64,000 nucleotides of DNA. Source: Oscillospiraceae bacterium (GTDB taxonomy: Bacteria; Bacillota; Clostridia; Oscillospirales; Oscillospiraceae). A program made the translations under genes and the position numbers. The stretch lies in NCBI GenBank assembly GCA_020860205.1, contig JAJBUU010000004.1:32001-96000 (forward strand), read 5' to 3'. Every line of letters begins with the position of its first letter. The stretch's first letter is position 1. A model generated the notes under the pieces. It was not told where the DNA came from. It saw only the letters and a list, made by a program, of their open reading frames with translations, and searched no databases. Below are positions 4,025-64,000 of the stretch, piece after piece.

Positions 4025-5734
4025 TCAGTTCAGCAGAAAGTCGGTGATGGGACTGCCGCCGGTGACCATGGGACGCACCATTTCGTCAATGTCGATGGCG
4101 CAGTCGATGACGCAGCCGCGGTCAGAGCCGATCGCGCCGCGCAGCGCGGCTTGCAGTTCCGCCAGATTGGTAACGCGGCAGCCGTCGATGCCGTAGGCCT
4201 TTGCCAGCGCGACAAAGTCCGGGCCGCGATCCAGCGTCGTTTCGGAATATCGCTCGTTATAAATCAGGTGCTGCCACTGGCGCACCATGCCAAGCGTGGC
4301 GTTATTGAATATCAGGGTGATGATCGGCAGGTGGTAAAACTGCTCGGTGCAAAGCTCATGGCAGTTCATGCGGAAGCTGCCGTCGCCGGTGACGTGCAGG
4401 ACGGTCTTTTCCGGGTGCCCCAGCTTTGCACCGATGGCCGCGCCAAGGCCAAAGCCCATCGTGCCAAAGCCGCCGGACGTGATGAGCTGTCCGGGATAGC
4501 TGAAGTTGAAGTGCTGAATGGCCCACATCTGATGCTGTCCCACGTCGGTGGTCACGATTGTGTCCTCCGGCAGCAGCTCCGCCGCGGTCGCCAGCACCTG
4601 CTTTGGCGTCAGGCACTCGCCGTCGTGGTCGTCATACTCCGTTTCAGTCGGGAAGGAGAAAACATATTCTTTCCATGCGCTGTGGCTGGCGGGCGCGCAG
4701 CGTTCCAGCAGCAGGGAGAGTATCTTCTTTGCGTCGCCGACGATGTGATGGTCGGTTTTGACGTTCTTATCGATCTCCGCCGCATCGATGTCAATGTGGA
4801 CGATTTTCGCCTTTGCGGCAAAACTGGAGGGATCGAGCGCCACACGGTCAGAGAATCGGGTGCCGATCCCAAGCAGCAGATCACAGGCGTCGCAGGCCAT
4901 GTTGGAGGCCTGGGAGCCGTGCATCCCGATCATGCCGGTCACAAGCGGGCTGGTGCCGGGCATTGCACCCGCGCCCATCACGGTCACGGCCACAGGAACG
5001 TCCAGCTTTTCCGCCAGCGCGCGCAGCTCCTGGTAAGCGCCGGAGCGCACCACGCCGCCGCCGCAGATCAGCAGCGGACGCTCCGCTGCGGCAAGCATCT
5101 CCGCCAGGCGATCCACGTCCTGCATATCCGGCTCCGACGACTTTACATCGTGGGCGGCATAGTACATCAGCTTGGCAAGACGGCCGTGCCTGAAGTGTTC
5201 CTCCGGCGGGAGATATTCGTATTCGCACTCCGCGCCTGTCACGTCCTTCTGGATGTCGATCAGCACGGGGCCGGGGCGACCGGCGCGCGCAAGGGCGAAG
5301 CCCTCACGCACCACGTCCGCCAGGGTGTTCACGTCGCGGACAAGATAGTTATATTTCGTGATCGGCAGCGTAACGCCGGTGATGTCGATTTCCTGGAAGG
5401 AGTCCTTGCCCATGTTCGCGTCCGTCACATTGCAGGTGATGAACACCACGGGGGACGAGTCCATGTAGGCGGTGGCGATGCCGGTGGTCAGGTTGGTCGC
5501 GCCGGGGCCGCTGGTGGCAAAGCAAACGCCCACCTTGCCGGTGGCGCGGGCATAGCCGTCCGCCGCGTGGGACGCGCCCTGCTCATGCGCGGTCAGGATG
5601 TGGCGAATCCTGTCATGGTAATCATAAAGTACATTATAAATGTCAAGAATGGTGCCGCCGGGATAGCCGAACACGGTGTCCACGCCCTGTTCCAGCAGGC
5701 ACTCGACTAAGATGTTTGCGCCTTTTAACTTCAT
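4025..5734 (-). CDS. ilvB: Acetolactate synthase large subunit
   Basis: ThDP enzyme motifs; start at MKLKGANILVECLLEQGVDTVFGYPGG behind a GGAGGAAA RBS, so the longer 607-aa ORF start is not preferred. Confidence 0.97.
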   Translation of the reverse strand: MKLKGANILVECLLEQGVDTVFGYPGGTILDIYNVLYDYHDRIRHILTAHEQGASHAADGYARATGKVGVCFATSGPGATNLTTGIATAYMDSSPVVFITCNVTDANMGKDSFQEIDITGVTLPITKYNYLVRDVNTLADVVREGFALARAGRPGPVLIDIQKDVTGAECEYEYLPPEEHFRHGRLAKLMYYAAHDVKSSEPDMQDVDRLAEMLAAAERPLLICGGGVVRSGAYQELRALAEKLDVPVAVTVMGAGAMPGTSPLVTGMIGMHGSQASNMACDACDLLLGIGTRFSDRVALDPSSFAAKAKIVHIDIDAAEIDKNVKTDHHIVGDAKKILSLLLERCAPASHSAWKEYVFSFPTETEYDDHDGECLTPKQVLATAAELLPEDTIVTTDVGQHQMWAIQHFNFSYPGQLITSGGFGTMGFGLGAAIGAKLGHPEKTVLHVTGDGSFRMNCHELCTEQFYHLPIITLIFNNATLGMVRQWQHLIYNERYSETTLDRGPDFVALAKAYGIDGCRVTNLAELQAALRGAIGSDRGCVIDCAIDIDEMVRPMVTGGSPITDFLLN

Positions 5735-30838: not shown

Positions 30839-31467
30839 TGACAGTCACCGCGCTCTGCCAAAAAACGGACGACCGCTTTGAACTGGAGCTGGACGGCGCG
30901 GAAAAGCTGACCGTCCCGCTCTCCCTTGTCGCGGACTTCTCCCTTTATGCGGGACGGGAGCTGAACGAGACGGAAGCGGAGCGTCTGCGCGGCGCCGTTT
31001 CGCTGGAACGCGCAAAGACGCGGGCGCTGCGGATGCTGGGAATGCGGGCGATGAGCACCCGCGAGATATATGACCGGCTGATGGAAAAGGGCGAGTGCGA
31101 ACAGGACGCCGCCGCGTGCGTGGCCTGGCTGCTGGAGCTGCACCTGCTCTCGGACGAGGACTACGCCGCCGCCGTGGTGCGCCGCTGCGCCGCAAAGGGC
31201 TACGGTGCGCGCCGCGCACGGGAGGAGCTGAACCGGCACAAGCTGCCGCGCGCGCTCTGGGACGCGGCGCTGGAAACGCTGCCGGAGCAGGACGAAACGC
31301 TTGACCGGCTGCTGCTGAGCCGTCTGCGCGGCGCATCGCCGGATGACCGCGCAGCGCTGAAAAAGGCGACGGACGCGCTGCTGCGCCGCGGCTTTGGCTG
31401 GGACGAAATCCGCGCCGCCGTGGAGCGGCTCCGGCTGCAAATGGAAACAGACGATACGGGAACATAA
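30838..31467 (+). CDS. recX: Regulatory protein RecX
   Basis: Position after recA with TGATG overlap; ALRMLGMRAMSTREIYDRLMEKG. Confidence 0.9.
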   Translation: MTVTALCQKTDDRFELELDGAEKLTVPLSLVADFSLYAGRELNETEAERLRGAVSLERAKTRALRMLGMRAMSTREIYDRLMEKGECEQDAAACVAWLLELHLLSDEDYAAAVVRRCAAKGYGARRAREELNRHKLPRALWDAALETLPEQDETLDRLLLSRLRGASPDDRAALKKATDALLRRGFGWDEIRAAVERLRLQMETDDTGT

Positions 31468-50227: not shown

Positions 50228-51040
50228 TTACGCAACGGTTTCCACCTGTCCGCTGAGGGCGTTGATATACAGCTCGCCGGTGTCCGTGGCAATGCGCCAG
50301 ACGGGATTCAGCGTGCTTTCGCCGGAACGGGTGACGGCCATCAGATAGCCCGGCGTCAGCGATTCCAGCCGGGAACAGATGAACCCCTCGCTGGTCACAA
50401 GCTCCACAAAGCGCGTTACCACGGTGACGGAATCCATTCCAACCTCGCCGGTTTCGCTCTCAGTGTTGAATACCACGGTGCCGGTCACAAGCTGCAACTG
50501 TTCGCCGGAGAAATCAAAGGAAAGCCGCGCATTATAGACGGGATAGCCGTTCCAGCAGCAGCAGATGGACAGCTCCTCGCCGGAGAGCCGCGCGCCGTCC
50601 GCATACAGCTCCAGCCCGGCGCGGGAAAAAAGCCGGGTGGCGGCTTTCAGCGGGTCGCCGCGTTTTTTCACAGCGTCCCCGTCATAGAGCAGATCCATCT
50701 CCCCGGTGCCGCGCATGACCAGTTGCCCGCGATTGGAATAGTAGTACCAGATGCTGCCGCCCTGATCCTCCGTATTGACGCTGCCCAGCAGCCCTTCCAT
50801 ACGCTGCCGCTCCAGTTCCATGTTGCGCACGACAGTGCAGGCCGCAGGCGCAGACTGCACCAGATCCGCCTCCGCGCCGACCACGATGTCGTTCGCGCGC
50901 AGCAGCCGGGTCAGCATCTCCACCGTCTCGTCCGTTTCCTGCCGCGCGTCCGCGCGCTCTGAAAGCACCATAGACAGCAGGAATGCATTCAGCAGCAGCA
51001 GGATGAGCAGAATGATATTTTCAAGCCTTTTTGTATCCAT
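50228..51040 (-). CDS. YycI-like two-component system regulatory protein
   Basis: Single N-terminal TM, located downstream of WalK and YycH-like gene; MDTKRLENIILLILLLLNAFLLSMVL. Confidence 0.8.
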   Translation of the reverse strand: MDTKRLENIILLILLLLNAFLLSMVLSERADARQETDETVEMLTRLLRANDIVVGAEADLVQSAPAACTVVRNMELERQRMEGLLGSVNTEDQGGSIWYYYSNRGQLVMRGTGEMDLLYDGDAVKKRGDPLKAATRLFSRAGLELYADGARLSGEELSICCCWNGYPVYNARLSFDFSGEQLQLVTGTVVFNTESETGEVGMDSVTVVTRFVELVTSEGFICSRLESLTPGYLMAVTRSGESTLNPVWRIATDTGELYINALSGQVETVA

Positions 51041-51045
51041 TTCCG

Positions 51046-52302
51046 TCAACCATACATCCAGACGCAGGAGACCCCGTCGCCGCTGTCCATATAAGCCAGC
51101 ACGGGCGCGCCGCCGGTTTCCGCAGCAATCGCTGCGGCGTACTGCGCGGGCAGCACTGTTTCCGTTTCCGTCAAAAGCGTGTAGCGCCGCACCACAAGCT
51201 GCAGCCGCGTCACCGCGCCGCCGCTGAACGTCACGCTTCCCGCGTGTCCCTCCGCCATGCGTACAGGTATCCCGTTGATGCAGTAGTCGAGATAGACCGT
51301 ATACTCCTCGTCCACATCGTCCGACGCTTCGATCCCGGCAAACATCAAGTCCGCGTCGCCCGCAGAAACGCCGAGCGCATCCGTTGCGACGGTGCAGGCA
51401 TAATTTACAGCGGAGAGCAAATCGTCCGCGACGGGTTCACCGGCTTCCGCGCGGTACTGCACAACGCCGTCCGGCGCGACGCGCAGGGTCTTTTCGTTCT
51501 CCACGCAGACCAGCGTCCCGTCCGACTCAAAGTAAGACGCTGCAAGGTAGCTGTTCATCCCCACGGCGCCGAGCAGAGAAACGGCGTCCGCCGCTTCGTA
51601 GCCGGATGCGGCGCTGACGCGCTGGATTTCCGGCAGCGTTTCCAGAATCACCGTATAAGCCGACGTGCCGGAAACGGAGAGCCCGCGTTCAAACGCGAAA
51701 GCCGCCGCGCTGCCCTGCAGGAAATCCCCCATCCGCGCGGTCAGCGTTTCCGTCTGCGCCGCCGTGGTGCAGCGATAAAACACCTCGTTCCCGCTGCAAA
51801 GATAAAGGCATACCGCATCGCCGCCGTCGGCCTCCGTGCCGAGAAAGACCAGCATGGCGTCCAGTGCCGCCGCGCCCCCGCCGCCGGTGCCGAGCCATGC
51901 GGAGAGCACATCCAGCGGATAGGGGCAGCCCAAATCCAGAAAAACGCCGCCGCGCGCGATGGCCGCGCGGAAGCCGCGCTCCGTAATTTCTTCCGGCGTA
52001 CCGGAGGAACCCAGCGCCTCACCCAAAAACGCGGCAAAATGGCTGAACGCCTGCTCGGTATCGTCCCCGTTATAGGCGGATGCAGCGCGTCCGCCGTCCG
52101 CCGTGCAGACCATGACCGCGCGGGGATGCACGGTGAACAGGACATTCTCCGTGCGCGCACCGCCGGAATCGGGCGCGGCGGCGTGCGCCGGATTCTCGCC
52201 GCTCTGGAAAAAGTCGGTCTGCATGGTCAGAAGCACCGCAGAGCAGAGCAGCAGCACGATCAAACCGCGCCGGACGAGTGTGAAAACCTGCGCCTTATGC
52301 AT
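51046..52302 (-). CDS. YycH-like regulatory protein
   Basis: Syntenic position between walK and yycI; N-terminal TM then extracytoplasmic domain. Confidence 0.7.
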   Translation of the reverse strand: MHKAQVFTLVRRGLIVLLLCSAVLLTMQTDFFQSGENPAHAAAPDSGGARTENVLFTVHPRAVMVCTADGGRAASAYNGDDTEQAFSHFAAFLGEALGSSGTPEEITERGFRAAIARGGVFLDLGCPYPLDVLSAWLGTGGGGAAALDAMLVFLGTEADGGDAVCLYLCSGNEVFYRCTTAAQTETLTARMGDFLQGSAAAFAFERGLSVSGTSAYTVILETLPEIQRVSAASGYEAADAVSLLGAVGMNSYLAASYFESDGTLVCVENEKTLRVAPDGVVQYRAEAGEPVADDLLSAVNYACTVATDALGVSAGDADLMFAGIEASDDVDEEYTVYLDYCINGIPVRMAEGHAGSVTFSGGAVTRLQLVVRRYTLLTETETVLPAQYAAAIAAETGGAPVLAYMDSGDGVSCVWMYG

Positions 52303-56731: not shown

Positions 56732-57078
56732 GGGGATGTACCGGTTTCGACGGGGGTGCGGAGGCTGGAGCAGCGGGTGGATGCGCCTACCATCCTGAAA
56801 ATGGGCAATTATAAATTAAAGAACGACTCTGAGCCTGTTCTTGCCGCTGCTTAATTAGCGGCCGTCTGTCCGGGGAGTACCACGGCCCCGGAACAGGCGT
56901 CGATCAGTGGTGAACGTGCGTGTGCTAAGCTTTGCGCACACCATGCATCATGAAGCTACCAACCCGGTCAGTGTGACAGCTCACGGTCCGGCGCGGGAAT
57001 TCAAATAACTGTCTGCACCCGGAGAAGCTCCTTCCAAAACGCTTTCGGACGGGGGTTCAACTCCCCCCATCTCCACCA
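56732..57078 (+). ncRNA. ssrA: tmRNA (ssrA)
   Basis: GGGGATG...CATCTCCACCA ends, ACCGGTTTCGACGGGG 5' signature, tag reading frame ...NYKLKNDSEPVLAAA-TAA, GGGTTCAACTCCC T arm. Confidence 0.95.
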
Positions 57079-57202
57079 AAATTATCGCTGGTCGAACACC
57101 CGGGAGCACGGTTTTCGTGTTCCTCAACGGTATCGCACTGGTGTTTAGATTAGAAGAAGCAAAAAGGTCTTGAGCCTATTTGTTTCACCCCGTAAACAAG
57201 GA

Positions 57203-57230
57203 GAGGGCGGTATAAAAACCGCCCTCTTCT
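57203..57230. terminator. Intrinsic terminator
   Basis: GAGGGCGGT-ataaaa-ACCGCCCTC-TTCTT. Confidence 0.85.
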
Positions 57231-57244
57231 TACGCTTATCCAGA

Positions 57245-57352
57245 AGCTCCCAGAAGCTCCAGAAATGAGTTTTCTCTTTCGGGTAGGTAAATCTAAGCCC
57301 AAAGTCTTAAAACTCGATACGGGTCAAATCAGGCTTGTTCTGGCTCGCTCTG
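57245..57352. repeat. Dispersed repeat R1, copy a
   Basis: 108 nt, about 85% identical (16 mismatches by eye) to 60443-60550. Confidence 0.9.
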
Positions 57353-57640
57353 GACTTTCCACTCTAACGCCTGCCCACAGCAAGAGCAGTAAGGCGAGTA
57401 TATGCGGTAGCTCCCTATTGCCTGCTTACAGCGAGGACAGAGAATATAATAGCTTCCGTCAGGTCTGAAATAATATAAAGGCCTTTCGGGTACTTGCTTC
57501 TGCAGCGCCGCGTCTAAGAGTGCAATGTGTTTCTCGACCTCGGTCATATCGCATTTTTCCAAAAACCCGCCTTGCCCGAACGGGTATTCAAAACCGTTGC
57601 AAAACGCTGAGCGGATTTTCTGTGCTTCCTGTTTTGTCAT
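57329..57640 (-). CDS. Small protein with C-terminal zinc ribbon
   Basis: 103 aa, YYILCPRCKQAIGSYRIYSPYCSCCGQALEW (CxxC...CxCC). Confidence 0.8.
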   Translation of the reverse strand: MTKQEAQKIRSAFCNGFEYPFGQGGFLEKCDMTEVEKHIALLDAALQKQVPERPLYYFRPDGSYYILCPRCKQAIGSYRIYSPYCSCCGQALEWKVQSEPEQA

Positions 57641-57655
57641 TTTTCTGGCCTCCTG

Positions 57656-57997
57656 TTACGGTGTCGTGATATACACTACGATTGCCTTTGTCCATGGCAG
57701 GTTTTCATAATACGGCCTGCATTCGCTTTCCTTCTCAGGCAGCGCTTCCCATTCTTCTATAGACAAATAACGCTCCAATACGTCAAACACATCATCGTCA
57801 CTCTTAAACGCGATATAGTCGTTGATTACAATATACTCGTCAACCATTGCCTTGCCCCAGTTTCCAGCATAGTAGCCGTAATCATCGCCCATAATGTCGG
57901 CGTCAACCATAGGCACAATAGGCAGCTCGGGATTTTCCTGTACGAGCTTCAGCAGCGTCTGTATGTACTCCTGCTGGATTTCATTTTCTGTTCTCAT
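57656..57997 (-). CDS. Hypothetical protein
   Basis: 113-aa ORF, 4-nt overlap with upstream gene. Confidence 0.75.
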   Translation of the reverse strand: MRTENEIQQEYIQTLLKLVQENPELPIVPMVDADIMGDDYGYYAGNWGKAMVDEYIVINDYIAFKSDDDVFDVLERYLSIEEWEALPEKESECRPYYENLPWTKAIVVYITTP

Positions 57998-58386
57998 GAG
58001 TCAAAAACCTCCATAATTAAATCTATGGCTTCTCTAAGGTGCTGCATAATGCTATAAATGCCATAGGCACGACCTTGCGCATAGGCGTATTCCCAAATTT
58101 TTCTCGCTCCGTTCCTGCTGAGACTGTGCCCGACTTCATTCTGAATAGCTTTATAAATATCTTCATGAATAGCGTCCCGAACTTTATTTTTCTCGCGATT
58201 AAGACGTGCAACCTCTTCTTGATACGCTGTGTTGTTCTTAATAACCATATCTTTATTCCATTTCACAGATTTATTTTCATTAAAAATATAATTCTGTGAA
58301 ACTTTTTTAATACCGCAAGGAATGCATGACATGTTCTGCATGGTTTCATAATCGCCCTGAATTTCTTGCCAGTCTTTAATTGCCAT
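57994..58386 (-). CDS. Hypothetical protein
   Basis: Start MAIKDWQEIQGDYETMQN with AAGGAGG RBS. Confidence 0.75.
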   Translation of the reverse strand: MAIKDWQEIQGDYETMQNMSCIPCGIKKVSQNYIFNENKSVKWNKDMVIKNNTAYQEEVARLNREKNKVRDAIHEDIYKAIQNEVGHSLSRNGARKIWEYAYAQGRAYGIYSIMQHLREAIDLIMEVFDS

Positions 58387-58427
58387 TAGACACCTCCTTA
58401 TCACTTTTTTTGTCTGGGCCCGTTCTC

Positions 58428-58844
58428 TTATGTGCTTGCGCCCTCGATAGGTCCGCCAGTGCTAAGTGAATCTATAACGCTTTGCAGCAAGTCAGTTTCT
58501 CCCAACTCCAACGCCTCGGTCAAGGCCACAAGTATTTCGTCCATTTCCGCAGCAGAGTATATGTAAACTCCGCCCTCATAATCGTCCGATACCTGAAAAG
58601 CCAAAAGCACAGGGTCCTCCAAGTTAATCCACTCAATCACGCCGTCGTCATTGAAGTACACTGTAGCGTCGGCCCAAAACTCATAATAACCGTTGTTATC
58701 GGTCTCAACGTTTACGACAACGCTCTCAGCGGCTATCTCGCCCGTAGGGACGACGGCCACGGCCTCGCCTTCGTTCTCGCCTGCGCAGCCCGCACACATT
58801 AAAGCAAGCGCCGCGCAAAGCATAAATGCCAAAATTTTCTTCAT
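58428..58844 (-). CDS. Putative lipoprotein
   Basis: MKKILAFMLCAALALMCAGCAGENEG signal peptide with lipobox. Confidence 0.85.
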   Translation of the reverse strand: MKKILAFMLCAALALMCAGCAGENEGEAVAVVPTGEIAAESVVVNVETDNNGYYEFWADATVYFNDDGVIEWINLEDPVLLAFQVSDDYEGGVYIYSAAEMDEILVALTEALELGETDLLQSVIDSLSTGGPIEGAST

Positions 58845-58860
58845 ACAAAAAGTCCTCCTT

Positions 58861-59043
58861 TTATGTTTTCTCTGTCTGAGACATAGACTCGGCAGGGAAT
58901 TTTCTGATTAAGCTAATCATGCCGAAGATAAGCGTATCGGGATTGAACATTTTCTCGGGACTGTCTACAATATCACAGTACCTCAGCCCGCCTAAATACT
59001 TCAGTAACTCCCATTTATTGATATACTCGTTCGCTGGGTCCAT
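58861..59043 (-). CDS. Hypothetical protein
   Basis: 60-aa ORF with upstream AAGGAGGGC. Confidence 0.65.
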   Translation of the reverse strand: MDPANEYINKWELLKYLGGLRYCDIVDSPEKMFNPDTLIFGMISLIRKFPAESMSQTEKT

Positions 59044-59054
59044 AAAGCCCTCCT

Positions 59055-59396
59055 TTAATCCTCTGAATTTACCTCGCCGCTCGCCATCAAGGTCAAAATG
59101 CCGTTCAGCTCGTTTTGTAAGTACCTGAGCGCGTCGTGAGCAAGCCCGTCAAGCTCCTTGCAAGTGAAGCGCTTGCAGTCATATGCCGACTTGAAATACC
59201 GCTGCACAGGGTACGCCCATTCATAATCGAAAAGAATACAACCTGTCAGCTCAAAACACTTTTCTGAGACGTCCTTAAACTCAACGGCGTTCGGAAAGTG
59301 CTCAAGCTTTTTGGTGCAGGTCGTATGCAAGCCTTTTACCAAAGAGCAAGCCTCGCGCACTTTGGAATAGCTGTAAGTAGCCTTTTCACATACCAT
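59055..59396 (-). CDS. Hypothetical protein
   Basis: Start MVCEKATYSYSKVREACSLV; TAATG overlap with upstream gene. Confidence 0.75.
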   Translation of the reverse strand: MVCEKATYSYSKVREACSLVKGLHTTCTKKLEHFPNAVEFKDVSEKCFELTGCILFDYEWAYPVQRYFKSAYDCKRFTCKELDGLAHDALRYLQNELNGILTLMASGEVNSED

Positions 59397-59620
59397 TAAA
59401 GGGTCACCTCCAAGCCGAGCATTCTCTGACACTTACGGATAAACAGCTTTTCGCAAGTGCCGTTTTCCTGTTTACCATATCTCTTTGTACGCTCGCCTAA
59501 AGCAGTGAACGCATACACACGAGCTTCGTCAATCTGCTCATCGGTCAAACGCGCCATTGTTTCCTCGCCAAGAGCCTTAACTCCGTAGCCCCTAAAAATC
59601 ACATCAATATTGTTCAGCAT
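59396..59620 (-). CDS. Hypothetical protein
   Basis: Start MLNNIDVIFRGYGVKALGEET. Confidence 0.7.
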   Translation of the reverse strand: MLNNIDVIFRGYGVKALGEETMARLTDEQIDEARVYAFTALGERTKRYGKQENGTCEKLFIRKCQRMLGLEVTL

Positions 59621-59838
59621 TACTTTGTCCTCCTTAAAAACTGATAGCATTCGGCAAACTCGTGTCTTGCCTCGTATTCAGGATTGATAAAACGAGAAAC
59701 GCTAAAGCCCGTGCAATGCGCGTCTATCTCAACGTCATACCAACCGGCATGCACGTAAGTGGTACGGACGATAATCACGTCGGCTTTTGTGCTCCTGAGG
59801 TATGCACGCAAATTGCTGATTACATGAGTCTCGGTCAT
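59620..59838 (-). CDS. Hypothetical protein
   Basis: 72-aa ORF with AAGGAGGCG RBS. Confidence 0.75.
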   Translation of the reverse strand: MTETHVISNLRAYLRSTKADVIIVRTTYVHAGWYDVEIDAHCTGFSVSRFINPEYEARHEFAECYQFLRRTK

Positions 59839-59852
59839 TTTGAAGCGCCTCC

Positions 59853-60002
59853 TTATTTACCAAAAGTGAGTCGAAGAATGTCGTTATCCTCGATTACCTT
59901 ATCCTGATTCTCAATCTCAAAAAGCAGGTCACGCAGCTCTTTAACGGTCATCTGCTGATTGTCAACCTCTGTAAGTACCTGTCTAAGCTCTCTGTACGTC
60001 AT
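59853..60002 (-). CDS. Small hypothetical protein (49 aa), absent from the supplied ORF track
   Basis: MTYRELRQVLTEVDNQQMTVKELRDLLFEIENQDKVIEDNDILRLTFGK* with GGAGGACAAAAAC-ATG. Confidence 0.75.
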   Translation of the reverse strand: MTYRELRQVLTEVDNQQMTVKELRDLLFEIENQDKVIEDNDILRLTFGK

Positions 60003-60045
60003 GTTTTTGTCCTCCAAAATCGTATTTGTCTGAGGCTTTATCCTC

Positions 60046-60138
60046 TTGACATTATTTATTATGCCGTGTTTTACTGATTTTGTATGCCGACAAAGCGCTC
60101 AGACTTTTACTGATTTTAGTGACACTGTTCTATGCGGT
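60046..60138. repeat. Dispersed upstream module R2, copy a
   Basis: TTGACATTATTTATTATGCCGTGTTTTACTGATTTTGTATGCCGACAAAGCGCTCAGACTT... closely matches 62433-62524. Confidence 0.85.
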
Positions 60139-60161
60139 TTTACTGGTAACAGTAAATAAGG

Positions 60162-60407
60162 CTAAGACTCAGACTTTTTATACTGTTCGAGACACTTCCT
60201 GCGGTAGGCCTCTTTGGAAACAGCCTTGCAGTAGTCGCTGTTCGCTGCGTAATACTTGCGGCTATATTCTGCCGCCTTTTCAGGGTGGGCCGCAAGCCAT
60301 GCACGGTCGCGTTCATACTTGACCTTTGCCCTGCACTCAGGCGAGCAATACTTTTTCGCGCGGGAAGTAACGTCAATAGGTTTTCCGCAGACCTGACATA
60401 TTTTCAT
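60162..60407 (-). CDS. Zinc-finger-like small basic protein
   Basis: MKICQVCGKPIDVTSRAKKYCSPECRAKVKYERDR (CxxC...CxxxC). Confidence 0.8.
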   Translation of the reverse strand: MKICQVCGKPIDVTSRAKKYCSPECRAKVKYERDRAWLAAHPEKAAEYSRKYYAANSDYCKAVSKEAYRRKCLEQYKKSES

Positions 60408-60442
60408 AGGTAATCACCCCTCAATAATGATGTAGTTTCTGG

Positions 60443-60550
60443 AGCTCCCAGAAGCTCCGTATTTGAGTTTTCTCTTTTGGGCGAATAAATCTAAGCCCAA
60501 AGTCCGAAAACTCGATATGGCTCAAAATAGGCTTGTTCTGGCTCGTTCTG
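60443..60550. repeat. Dispersed repeat R1, copy b
   Basis: See 57245-57352. Confidence 0.9.
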
Positions 60551-60557
60551 AGCTTGC

Positions 60558-60767
60558 TTATTCCTGTTCGGTATCATCGGGCGCAAGAATATCCTCAATG
60601 CTGCACTCCAAAGAGTCTGCGAGCTTCTGCGCTGTCTTGAGCGCGATGTTCTCGGTCTTAATAACGCCGTGCTCAATCTGCCACAGCTTTTGGTAATTGA
60701 CGCCCGACTTCTCGGCGAGCTGCTTATAAGTCAAGCCCTTTTCTTTTCTCAGTTTTGCGAGTCCCAT
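60558..60767 (-). CDS. XRE-family helix-turn-helix regulator
   Basis: MGLAKLRKEKGLTYKQLAEKSGVNYQKLWQIEHGVIKTENIALKTAQKLADSLECSIEDIL. Confidence 0.92.
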   Translation of the reverse strand: MGLAKLRKEKGLTYKQLAEKSGVNYQKLWQIEHGVIKTENIALKTAQKLADSLECSIEDILAPDDTEQE

Positions 60768-60789
60768 TGTTTTTATCTCCTTTTCATTT

Positions 60790-61482
60790 TCAAATTTTTG
60801 TTTTCCATGCCCAGCCGTCTAAGATGTAGACGGGAGTCAGCCAACGAGAATACTCCTCAGCCGTCAAGCTGTTCCCGTGGACGACTACGGCGGGAATGCC
60901 GTAAAGGGATAACTGCAAGTAGCACATATACACGCACTTAATATCGACGTCGGTCGCAAAGACGAAGAGTTGCTTGGAATAATTCATATCGCGTTCAAGC
61001 ATAGCCTTTGCCATACCGAGAATCATTGCTCCCGACCCGCAGCAAGGCTCGTTCAGAGAAACGTAGCCTCGCTCGTTCAAAAGAATATCCTTGCCGCCTA
61101 TCACGATTTCGGCCATCAGGTCGCAGACGTGTTGCGGCGTAAAGAATTGGCCTTTGTACTTATTGTGAAGCTCCAACTCGTGAAACAGGGTACCGAGTAC
61201 GTCGGTCGGTGCGTTGCTCCATGTGATTTCATACTCTAAGGCGAGTACAAGCTCCGCGAACATTTGCGTAAATAGCTCTTGCTCGTCGGGCTTATATTTC
61301 CTTATGGTCTCAAGGTATTGCTGCTCACGTTTCTCCCATGTCGGCGCGTGTCTGTCGCAGCTGTTCGCGACGCATAACGCGCTGAGCGCCACGAAATCAG
61401 AGAAAACGTCCCATACACTATGTACCTGCCCGAGCCTCTGTATGGTTTTCAATATCGTTTGTCTGTGAGGGTTGTTCGCCAT
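60790..61482 (-). CDS. N6-adenine DNA methylase-like protein lacking a recognisable NPPY motif
   Basis: GQFFTPQHVCDLMAEIVIGG ... SLNEPCCGSGAMILGMAKAML (motif I); ends soon after motif-III-like region. Confidence 0.85.
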   Translation of the reverse strand: MANNPHRQTILKTIQRLGQVHSVWDVFSDFVALSALCVANSCDRHAPTWEKREQQYLETIRKYKPDEQELFTQMFAELVLALEYEITWSNAPTDVLGTLFHELELHNKYKGQFFTPQHVCDLMAEIVIGGKDILLNERGYVSLNEPCCGSGAMILGMAKAMLERDMNYSKQLFVFATDVDIKCVYMCYLQLSLYGIPAVVVHGNSLTAEEYSRWLTPVYILDGWAWKTKI

Positions 61483-61513
61483 AATAACCTCCTTAACAGC
61501 CGCGAAGCGCGCC

Positions 61514-62395
61514 TTAATCGGCGCGCTCCATAACGACTTCACAGATTCCGCAAATCAAGCTAAGCTCGCCCGTCGTTCTGACAGTCTGCCCGCAGCAAGG
61601 GCAGGTGTAAGCGTGAGCCTTTACGCGAGAAGCTTTTTTGCTTTTCTTTCCCAAGGTATGGCGGGCAAACGGTACTTCAAGAGCGTACCCGTTCTCGCGG
61701 AGGGTCTCAATAAAAGACTCGCTCGGCGTCGTGGTTGAATAGCCGTTTGCGCGGTCGTAATCAATGATGAGCCCTCTTGCCTCAGCCTCCTGCTTGAAGA
61801 GCTTGTTGTGGTATCTGCCGTTTTGGCAGGTTTCCGTCAAGTCATTCTCGCGGCAGTAGAGGTGAACCATTTCGTGGAGCATGGTCGCCGCAGTGTTCTC
61901 GCTCGGTCTGTTCAGGTACTCGGCGCCGATGTTGATTTCATAGCGCCCGTTATCCTCTTCGCCTGCGTTCCAGATTTTCTTTGTCGTGCAGTGGCCGTAA
62001 GCCCTCGGCGTAGACTGGACCGTAATGACGGGGCGGGGCAGCTTGTCCTCAAAGTAAAGGCGATTCAGCAGGTCAAAGAGGTTTTCAAGCTTGCCGACGA
62101 TTTCGGAAAGAGCAAGAGGCTTGTCCTCAGCTTCCGTATCGGTCTTTTCCTCTTCGGTATGTACTTCTTCAGCCTCAGAGGTTTCGGTCTCATTCTGCGC
62201 GTCCTGCGCGGTCTCAGCAGCAGTCTCGGTCTCAGCCTCGACAGCTTCTTCTTCAACGGCTTTCCACCAGCGGCGAAGTGTAATGTTCTTGACCTCTTTA
62301 GTCTCGCCCGTTGCGACGTCCTTCAGGGTAACACCGTCCTCGATTGTTCCGATGAGCTCGGCAAGAGCTCCTGTCTTTACGTGTTTGTACATCAT
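61514..62395 (-). CDS. SprT-like metalloprotease-domain protein with acidic linker and C-terminal zinc ribbon
   Basis: LFDLLNRLYFEDKLPRPVITVQ ... TAATMLHEMVHLYCR (HExxH) ... YTCPCCGQTVRTTGELSLICGICE; GGAGGACAATACC RBS. Confidence 0.88.
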   Translation of the reverse strand: MMYKHVKTGALAELIGTIEDGVTLKDVATGETKEVKNITLRRWWKAVEEEAVEAETETAAETAQDAQNETETSEAEEVHTEEEKTDTEAEDKPLALSEIVGKLENLFDLLNRLYFEDKLPRPVITVQSTPRAYGHCTTKKIWNAGEEDNGRYEINIGAEYLNRPSENTAATMLHEMVHLYCRENDLTETCQNGRYHNKLFKQEAEARGLIIDYDRANGYSTTTPSESFIETLRENGYALEVPFARHTLGKKSKKASRVKAHAYTCPCCGQTVRTTGELSLICGICEVVMERAD

Positions 62396-62432
62396 GGTAT
62401 TGTCCTCCTTATTCATTGTAGCGGTTATCCGC

Positions 62433-62524
62433 TTGACATTTATTATTATGTCGTGTTTTACTGATTTTGTATGCCGACGAAACGCTCAGACTTTACTGAA
62501 AATAGTAAGTCGTTTCCTATGCGC
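62433..62524. repeat. Dispersed upstream module R2, copy b
   Basis: See 60046-60138; sits directly upstream of the SprT-like gene. Confidence 0.85.
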
Positions 62525-62588
62525 TTTTGCCGGTTTACTATATTCGGTAGAGCGAACGCCCCAAAACGACCCATACACAGGGCGGTTT

Positions 62589-62934
62589 ACAACCGATACA
62601 ACCGAAACAACCGAGTAAAAATGGGCTCGGTTGTAAGCTCAAAGCCTTGCAAACACTGGCTTTTTGGCTCTTTTACAACCGAAACAACCGAGAATTCCTA
62701 TAACACTTCTTTTAATTTGAGAGTATTTGAGAAGAAATAAAGGTATATGTACTCTCAAATCTCTCTATTCTCTCAATTTTCAAAAAGTGTTATTAAAAAT
62801 CGGTTGTCTCGGTTGTAAGGCTCGAAAAGCCTTGAAAACAAAGGACTTTTTCAACAACCGAGCTCGGTTGTTTCGGTTGTTTCGGTTGTAAACTCGGTTG
62901 TAGGAGCGCCCGACTCGGTTGTAAACACGGTCGT
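62589..62934. repeat. Iteron-like array of nonamers ACAACCGAN/NTCGGTTGT with nested inverted repeats
   Basis: Exact copies start at 62589, 62598, 62607, 62675, 62684, 62854 (forward) and 62626, 62799, 62808, 62863, 62872, 62881, 62893, 62914 (reverse); degenerate copy at 62926. Confidence 0.93.
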
Positions 62935-62947
62935 AAATCTTGCGGCG

Positions 62948-63151
62948 TCATACCGTCGCACTCTCAATCCGAGCGATAAAGCCTTCAAGCTCTGCAACCG
63001 ACATTTTCGCGTCCATGTAGTCCTTGACAACCGTATAGTCGGGCTTGTTTTTGATTTCTGCCTCAAGGCTCGATACAAGGTCCTCTGCGTCGTCAAGCGC
63101 TGTAGCGAGATAGCGCTTGATTGCGTTCCACTCTGATAACGTGAATTTCAT
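62948..63151 (-). CDS. Hypothetical coiled-coil-like small protein
   Basis: 67-aa ORF, AAGGAGGCG RBS. Confidence 0.75.
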   Translation of the reverse strand: MKFTLSEWNAIKRYLATALDDAEDLVSSLEAEIKNKPDYTVVKDYMDAKMSVAELEGFIARIESATV

Positions 63152-63163
63152 CTTATCGCCTCC

Positions 63164-63412
63164 TTATTTGAATAAGTCTCTTGCTATGTAGTCTCCATAA
63201 CCCTTATCGATATAGGCCTGCAGCACGGCCCGAGCCTCGACGTCATAGGTAATATGGTCATGGACCTCCTGAATCGTGTCGTACTCCTGCAACAAGGCGA
63301 CGATTAAGTCGCTTGCTGCTTTGGTACTCCACGCAAGAGCGCGGGCCTTATAGGATTTTGCTGTAGGGGCGAGCCATTTGACGTCGCCCTTATCATATCT
63401 GCGGCGACTCAT
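63164..63412 (-). CDS. Hypothetical small basic protein
   Basis: Start MSRRRYDKGDVKWLAPTAKSYKARAL; overlaps upstream gene. Confidence 0.75.
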   Translation of the reverse strand: MSRRRYDKGDVKWLAPTAKSYKARALAWSTKAASDLIVALLQEYDTIQEVHDHITYDVEARAVLQAYIDKGYGDYIARDLFK

Positions 63413-63597
63413 ACCGACACCTCGCATATAAGGTACTCGGTATTGTTCTCATCGCGGTAGAGGTACGGGTCTATCAGCATAGGCCTCGGTCTTCGGCTTT
63501 CAATAAAGGCCTTGGCCGATTGCATACTCAAATAGCCTTCCTGACTGACCTTGCTCGGGTGCGCCTCGGGCGTTACCTGTACGACATAAACCCTCAT
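63409..63597 (-). CDS. Hypothetical protein
   Basis: Start MRVYVVQVTPEAHPSKVSQEGYLS; 4-nt overlaps on both sides. Confidence 0.7.
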   Translation of the reverse strand: MRVYVVQVTPEAHPSKVSQEGYLSMQSAKAFIESRRPRPMLIDPYLYRDENNTEYLICEVSV

Positions 63598-63833
63598 GAC
63601 CTCGCCTCCTGCCTTAACTTGAGCAGCTTGCTGAGGGCGCAATGAAGGAAGAAGTCCCGCAGCTCGTCCTCTGTAGTCTCATACTCAGTACGTACAATCA
63701 GCGTATAATTCGCGGCGTAACGGCTCCAAGAAACATTGAAGCACATATAGCTGTAGCCCTGCAGGCAGTCCTTGATTGCTACGCACTCGCTTTCAGTGAA
63801 GTAGCCGAGCTCGGTAAAAATATGTTCTGTCAT
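63594..63833 (-). CDS. Hypothetical protein
   Basis: 79-aa ORF, AAGGAGGAC RBS. Confidence 0.75.
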   Translation of the reverse strand: MTEHIFTELGYFTESECVAIKDCLQGYSYMCFNVSWSRYAANYTLIVRTEYETTEDELRDFFLHCALSKLLKLRQEARS

Positions 63834-63849
63834 GGTCTTGTCCTCCTTA

Positions 63850-64000
63850 TCAGTGAAGCTTGTAGGTGTTGCCCTTAGCCTTAACGAAGTAATGCTTTAC
63901 GAGCGTGCCGTCGTGGTTTCTGCTCAAAGTGCTGTAGACTTCCTCAATATCAGAAAGACGAACACTCTTGCAGCGGGGCTGTCTCTTTACAAAGGAAAGA
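63850..64000 (-). CDS. Hypothetical protein, C-terminal part only (5' end outside window)
   Basis: Open frame SFVKRQPRCKSVRLSDIEEVYSTLSRNHDGTLVKHYFVKAKGNTYKLH*. Confidence 0.65.
   Translation of the reverse strand, partial: LSFVKRQPRCKSVRLSDIEEVYSTLSRNHDGTLVKHYFVKAKGNTYKLH

Follow-up and report, generated by a model that had tools for sequence, protein, structure and literature searches.

What is a dense cluster of short repeats doing between genes near the end of a contig from an Oscillospiraceae bacterium? In the 64,000-nucleotide stretch of DNA analysed here (hereafter referred to as the window), an earlier note, made from the letters alone, had described an array of nonamers with two hairpin cassettes in the intergenic region of an island, and had likened it to Rep-binding iterons, a relaxase/oriT region or a cooperative operator. 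We examined the array itself, its relatives in other genomes and the proteins that might act on it.

An iteron array at the end of a prophage

An exact-match scan of the 64-kb window revealed 14 copies of ACAACCGA/TCGGTTGT, as the earlier note had counted, all within 62589-62922 and none elsewhere, and dinucleotide shuffles of the whole window yielded a mean of 1.65 ACAACCGA copies, a maximum of 6 and never 14. The 9-nt phasing also held, with head-to-tail runs at 62589/62598/62607, 62675/62684, 62800/62809 and 62864/62873/62882 (the last previously given as 62863/62872/62881, counted from the base before TCGGTTGT), and the two hairpin cassettes, AAAGCCTTGCAAACACTGGCTTTTT (62641-62665) and AAAGCCTTGAAAACAAAGGACTTTT (62826-62850), proved to be related as claimed (80% alike). 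In addition to these features we found an overall dyad: the outer arms (62585-62615 and 62863-62893) are 97% complementary, and the interval 62585-62893 forms an imperfect palindrome (68% match to its own reverse complement). The core of this palindrome has a G+C content of ~25% (62700-62759) versus ~50% outside either end of the unit, and contains arms of its own (62700-62726 and 62767-62793; 81% complementary). Facing iterons, an A+T core and hairpins are thus assembled in ~300 bp of non-coding DNA, which is the layout of an iteron-type phage origin of the Sfi21 kind. The parts of this unit, hereafter copy A, and its surroundings are as follows.

57071-64000, unstranded: attL-side part of a tailed prophage, which runs to the contig end (window position 64547)
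61514-62416, minus strand: SprT-like gene (PF10263), a neighbour of copy A in this phage group with no functional tie to it
62585-62893, unstranded: whole palindromic origin-like unit (copy A), with 97% complementary outer arms; the segment that recurs in related prophages
62589-62614, plus strand: outer left iterons, three ACAACCGA at 9-nt spacing (exact matches)
62627-62634, minus strand: single inverted iteron (exact match)
62641-62665, unstranded: left hairpin cassette, reverse complement AAAAAGCCAGTGTTTGCAAGGCTTT, which recurs in most arrays despite other iterons
62675-62691, plus strand: inner left iteron pair, directed toward the core (exact matches)
62693-62799, unstranded: A+T-rich core, candidate DNA unwinding element (from G+C content and complementary arms)
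62800-62816, minus strand: inner right iteron pair, directed toward the core (exact matches)
62826-62850, unstranded: right hairpin cassette, 80% like the left
62854-62861, plus strand: single inverted iteron (exact match)
62864-62922, minus strand: outer right iterons, the first three at 9-nt spacing and the others at 62894 and 62915 (exact matches)

Beyond the copy at 62915, a degenerate iteron copy reaches ~62936 (repeat family D5). A promoter and terminator scan gave no signal above shuffles, and in an Rfam scan only the tmRNA was convincing; matches of the palindrome to snR49 and MIR9563 fell below gathering scores and are read as chance matches to the hairpin.

Within the host assembly (1.93 Mb), the tandem motif is confined to the array site; the nonamer motif is therefore not a generic genomic repeat, a reading the earlier note had named as fatal to its own. 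Among 301 family genomes scanned for the tandem pattern, only the array's own genome matched, and plasmids gave no match to the array. A MITE was considered and rejected, given the single copy in its own genome and the constant location of the other copies within phage replication modules. When IMG/VR and GTDB contigs were scanned for the exact tandem pattern, most matches were simple 9-mer tandem repeats from unrelated taxa, and the flanks were shared only by three genomes: the gut MAGs L025 and L040 match in both array and flanking genes, and L037 has the array in collapsed form. The contigs of two of these genomes encode terminase, portal, capsid, tail, reverse transcriptase, endolysin and serine recombinase genes, and among annotated relatives the nearest is Dulem virus 37, known as a complete genome (SprT, 67.5%; VapE, 89.7%), which has a tail sheath and a diversity-generating retroelement. 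From this sharing of array and flanks with phage-bearing relatives, we conclude that the island is one end of a prophage, in which SprT and the methylase are passenger genes.

The left edge of the prophage (~57071) falls at the 3' end of the tmRNA gene (56732-57078), and the contig stops 547 bases past the window. The remainder of the prophage, including its own copy of the second array described below (copy B) and its helicase, was not found in the host assembly; this genome's copy B lies beyond the contig end, and the relatives carrying the second copy are Dulem virus 37, IMG/VR phages and two MAG prophages. Several further observations concern this phage group. The 3' end of the tmRNA gene serves as the attachment edge, with a large serine recombinase as the integrase in relatives. 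A short N6-methylase-like gene (window 60790-61542) and a small XRE regulator (60558-60767) travel with SprT. A diversity-generating retroelement (Avd plus reverse transcriptase) is found at L109 24355-26228 and L074 7528-8763. Finally, a leader of ~150 bp with the dyad ACTTACTATTTTCAGTAAAGT (window 62385-62534 and 60000-60155; L007 2475-2547) recurs upstream of several accessory-region genes and in relatives, as a repeated promoter or regulator site.

A second copy beside a primase-helicase gene

When 62385-62950 was used as a query against two related genomes, each gave a second match, on both strands, limited to the palindrome and 75-79% identical; only query positions 201-518, i.e., 62585-62902, recur. 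In both genomes, copy B lies between a VRR-NUC-like gene and a gene for a VapE-type primase-helicase, and Dulem virus 37 carries both copies (30980-31279 and 50729-51100). We further gathered 25 IMG/VR loci encoding the VapE-type helicase and found an iteron array in the gap 3' of this gene in nearly all of them, with iterons that vary by phage; where the SprT side was on the same contig, a second array (copy A) was there as well. A diverged array adjoins SprT in L179. Copy B of the relatives is directly 3' of the primase-helicase gene, whereas copy A in the window is not, and copy A occurs on either side of SprT at ~0.2 to 3.6 kb in different phages.

These positions bear on two other roles raised in the earlier note, an oriT and a cooperative operator, the latter considered here for the SprT, methylase and XRE genes. 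Its intergenic position and dyad layout are all that speak for either role. Against them, the carriers have the terminase, capsid, tail sheath and lysis genes of tailed prophages, the annotation of the complete relative Dulem virus 37 lists no relaxase, the twin array sits in the replication module, the position relative to SprT shifts, and the separate promoter-like leader at 62385-62534 recurs upstream of other genes. We therefore regard both roles as highly improbable.

The VapE-type protein of the relatives matches the staphylococcal initiator helicase PriRep1, solved with double-stranded DNA (7pds; 3.9e-76, by sequence). For the last 170 residues of this protein, structure prediction gives a terminal winged helix of helix-helix-strand-strand order (pLDDT ~90), and the fold match of the C-terminal part to PriRep1 is modest (overall TM-score ~0.5, predicted structure). 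With overall identity controlled, iteron similarity best tracks helicase residues 690-750 (partial r = 0.39; 24 phages), a correlation suggestive of a link between these residues and iteron recognition.

The anatomy of the array is widely shared. Of 33 arrays, 32 have iterons that point toward one another across the A+T core, and the annotated origin of phage Sfi21 is among them; copy A keeps its core and its inward-pointing iterons even where it is shortest. GC skew, examined as an origin marker, gave no consistent signal and is confounded by gene orientation. On the strength of homologous arrays directly 3' of VapE/PriRep-type genes and of this Sfi21-like anatomy, the Rep-binding iteron reading appears well supported, and we are confident that the array is an initiator-bound, origin-type site.

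A hairpin motif, AAAGCCAGTN5CAAGGCTTT, is present in exact or degenerate form in most arrays despite their differing iterons. Three phages without a VapE match (L155, L164 and L168) have the same hairpin in arrays close to a CHC2/DUF927-type primase-helicase, and this occurrence beside unrelated iterons and another type of primase-helicase points to a second recognition step. The sites concerned (L164 3997-4019, L155 8643-8665 and L168 11183-11205) lie within iterons of other sequence (TTAGGCGTTAGG; TTAACACCTTTT), and near L166 position 8025 the hairpin accompanies GTGCCAC repeats, where the gene close by is integrase-like and not one for replication. The motif is rare (3 of 294 class genomes) and hence not a generic genomic repeat; nor is it exclusive to origins, because roughly half of the IMG/VR hairpin matches are without iterons. 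It may be a priming or assembly structure, or may shield against transcription.

Matched iterons and the role of the extra copy

Iteron types differ across phages (ACAACCGA, ACGACCGA, GTAGCACT, GTAGCAGA, GTAGCAA and TCAGCAGA), and the two copies within one phage are alike. For seven representatives, k-mer sharing between matched A and B copies reached 212, whereas permutations averaged 50 and none of all 5040 did better; copy A had first been picked in this test by similarity to copy B, and a retest was made without that choice. When each phage's own copy-B k-mers were scanned genome-wide, the best window fell within ~4 kb of SprT in nine of nine SprT phages, with scores far above Markov shuffles in eight and equal to the shuffle maximum in G311, whose copy A is supported by BLAST (80% over 193 bp). 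In a tree of the arrays, A and B copies cluster by phage in G304, G305, G315 and G311/G312 (99-100% support) and by site in G309/G322, and in the ACAACCGA group the A copies and the B copies of close phages form separate pairs, indicating that homogenisation is recurrent rather than continuous. Since the recognition sequence changes in both copies when it differs between phages, one initiator very probably reads both, as far as sequence comparison can tell. Together, these results make it very likely that the array is a duplicate copy of an iteron-type phage replication origin and that a single initiator serves both copies. The primase-helicase would bind the iterons of copies A and B through its C-terminal winged helix, melt the A+T core, load itself and start replication; in the least certain step, copy A would serve as another start site that depends on the initiator, the two copies forming a pair like oriL and oriR of the Bacillus phage SPP1.

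Whether copy A itself fires is, in our judgement, an even question. A working start site is favoured over a bare binding site by the A+T core and facing iterons kept in the shortest forms. Copy A was seen in all of the nine or more phages in which both regions were visible, and its dyad and core are kept while the flanks diverge, which suggests that it is under selection. Its importance is called into question by G311/G312, where few iterons remain, and the two-origin reading by the complete genomes of LWP01 (Listeria), QT1 (Staphylococcus) and Sfi21, from other genera, which have one copy each and no second. Copy A may even be dispensable, because its core is lost in L037, unless that contig is misassembled. 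In this genome (Ruminococcus MI.7_3, 4430-4500), the stretch matching window 62641-62913 is missing, through either natural deletion between repeats or assembly collapse.

Three other roles for copy A were weighed against that of a second start site. It could be an initiator-bound fork barrier, or a switch of replication to concatemer mode, and this we consider possible but rather unlikely. SPP1 has two same-repeat sites bound by one protein, and a role in stalling forks and setting off concatemer replication has been proposed for the second of them, oriR (PMC6316719, PMC3485210); copy A, like that second site, is found among passenger genes and apart from the replication genes. A pure barrier would, however, need neither the A+T core nor the facing inner iterons that copy A keeps. 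It might instead be a passive by-product, with origins exchanged between phage modules and gene conversion keeping the copies alike without function. The by-phage grouping in several lineages is what gene conversion would give, and the core loss in L037 and the varying position fit as well, but the presence of copy A wherever both regions are visible, with dyad and core kept amid diverged flanks, makes this improbable. We likewise give little credence to a titration or interference element that binds initiator and limits replication in the lysogen or of a superinfecting relative, in the manner of phage-encoded resistance (PER). The Sfi21 origin is annotated as a 'phage inhibitory sequence', the PER effect of the cloned origin is described as dependent on copy number (PMC6356513), and the iterons are kept matched between copies; yet PER is described for extra origin copies, a single extra copy per genome would be a weak decoy, and titration has no need for a retained A+T core.

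Comparison with known replication origins

The array has counterparts in several characterised systems. The Sfi21 origin is described as an independent origin activated by infection (PMC6356513), and is annotated at NC_000872, 34487-34784, as a '302 bp non-coding region' directly 3' of a putative primase. Like the window array, it consists of ~300 bp of non-coding DNA with facing iterons around an A+T core and hairpins (AAACCCATTGAAAATAAAGGGTTT and AAACCTTGATATATAAGGGGTTT) that separate the inner iterons from the outer ones, and like copy B it lies directly 3' of a helicase/primase gene; it differs in its iterons (AGTAAC), its D5-type rather than VapE-type helicase and its single copy per genome. 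Origins of phage-inducible islands (SaPI/PICI), which use Rep or PriRep initiators, likewise have an A+T-rich region between two sets of iterons just 3' of the initiator gene, an organisation stated to be known from no other bacterial replicon (PMC6092414), and the helicase of our relatives is homologous to PriRep1 (7pds). Here, however, the carriers are complete tailed phages with full head, tail and lysis genes, not satellites devoid of structural genes, and they have two copies. Ordinary temperate phages thus share an origin layout that had been described as exclusive to such islands.

In SPP1, the origins oriL and oriR lie apart, have their repeats and an A+T region in common and are bound by a single initiator (PMC6316719, PMC3485210); one is in the replication module and the other among passenger genes (PMC6316719). 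The phages studied here likewise hold two separated sites with common iterons and an A+T region within one genome, with copy A in a passenger-gene region. SPP1 differs in using gp38, the loader gp39 and the DnaB-type helicase gp40, whereas the candidate initiator here is a self-loading primase-helicase, and the SPP1 accounts consulted do not describe facing-iteron palindromes with hairpins. No protein in the Dulem virus 37 annotation is named as gp38, gp39 or gp40 of SPP1. In the satellite phage P4, one multifunctional primase-helicase acts on two separated iteron sites, ori and crr, an arrangement like that proposed for copies A and B.

We conclude that the array is very probably a phage origin of a known kind, well conserved, in an unusual duplicated form; the duplication of the site and the co-evolution of both copies are the new part. 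An unexplained repeat cluster thereby becomes a testable origin, and the duplicated, co-switching copies offer natural variation for mapping DNA recognition by PriRep-type initiators. There is perhaps an equal chance that a whole clade of temperate gut phages uses a PriRep-type two-origin replicon, with a matched pair of iteron sites that stay in step as recognition sequences diversify, one self-loading primase-helicase and conserved hairpins for a separate factor common to unrelated phage origins. The paired copies raise the question of why a phage of ~50 kb would maintain two origins; the precedent that we found is SPP1.
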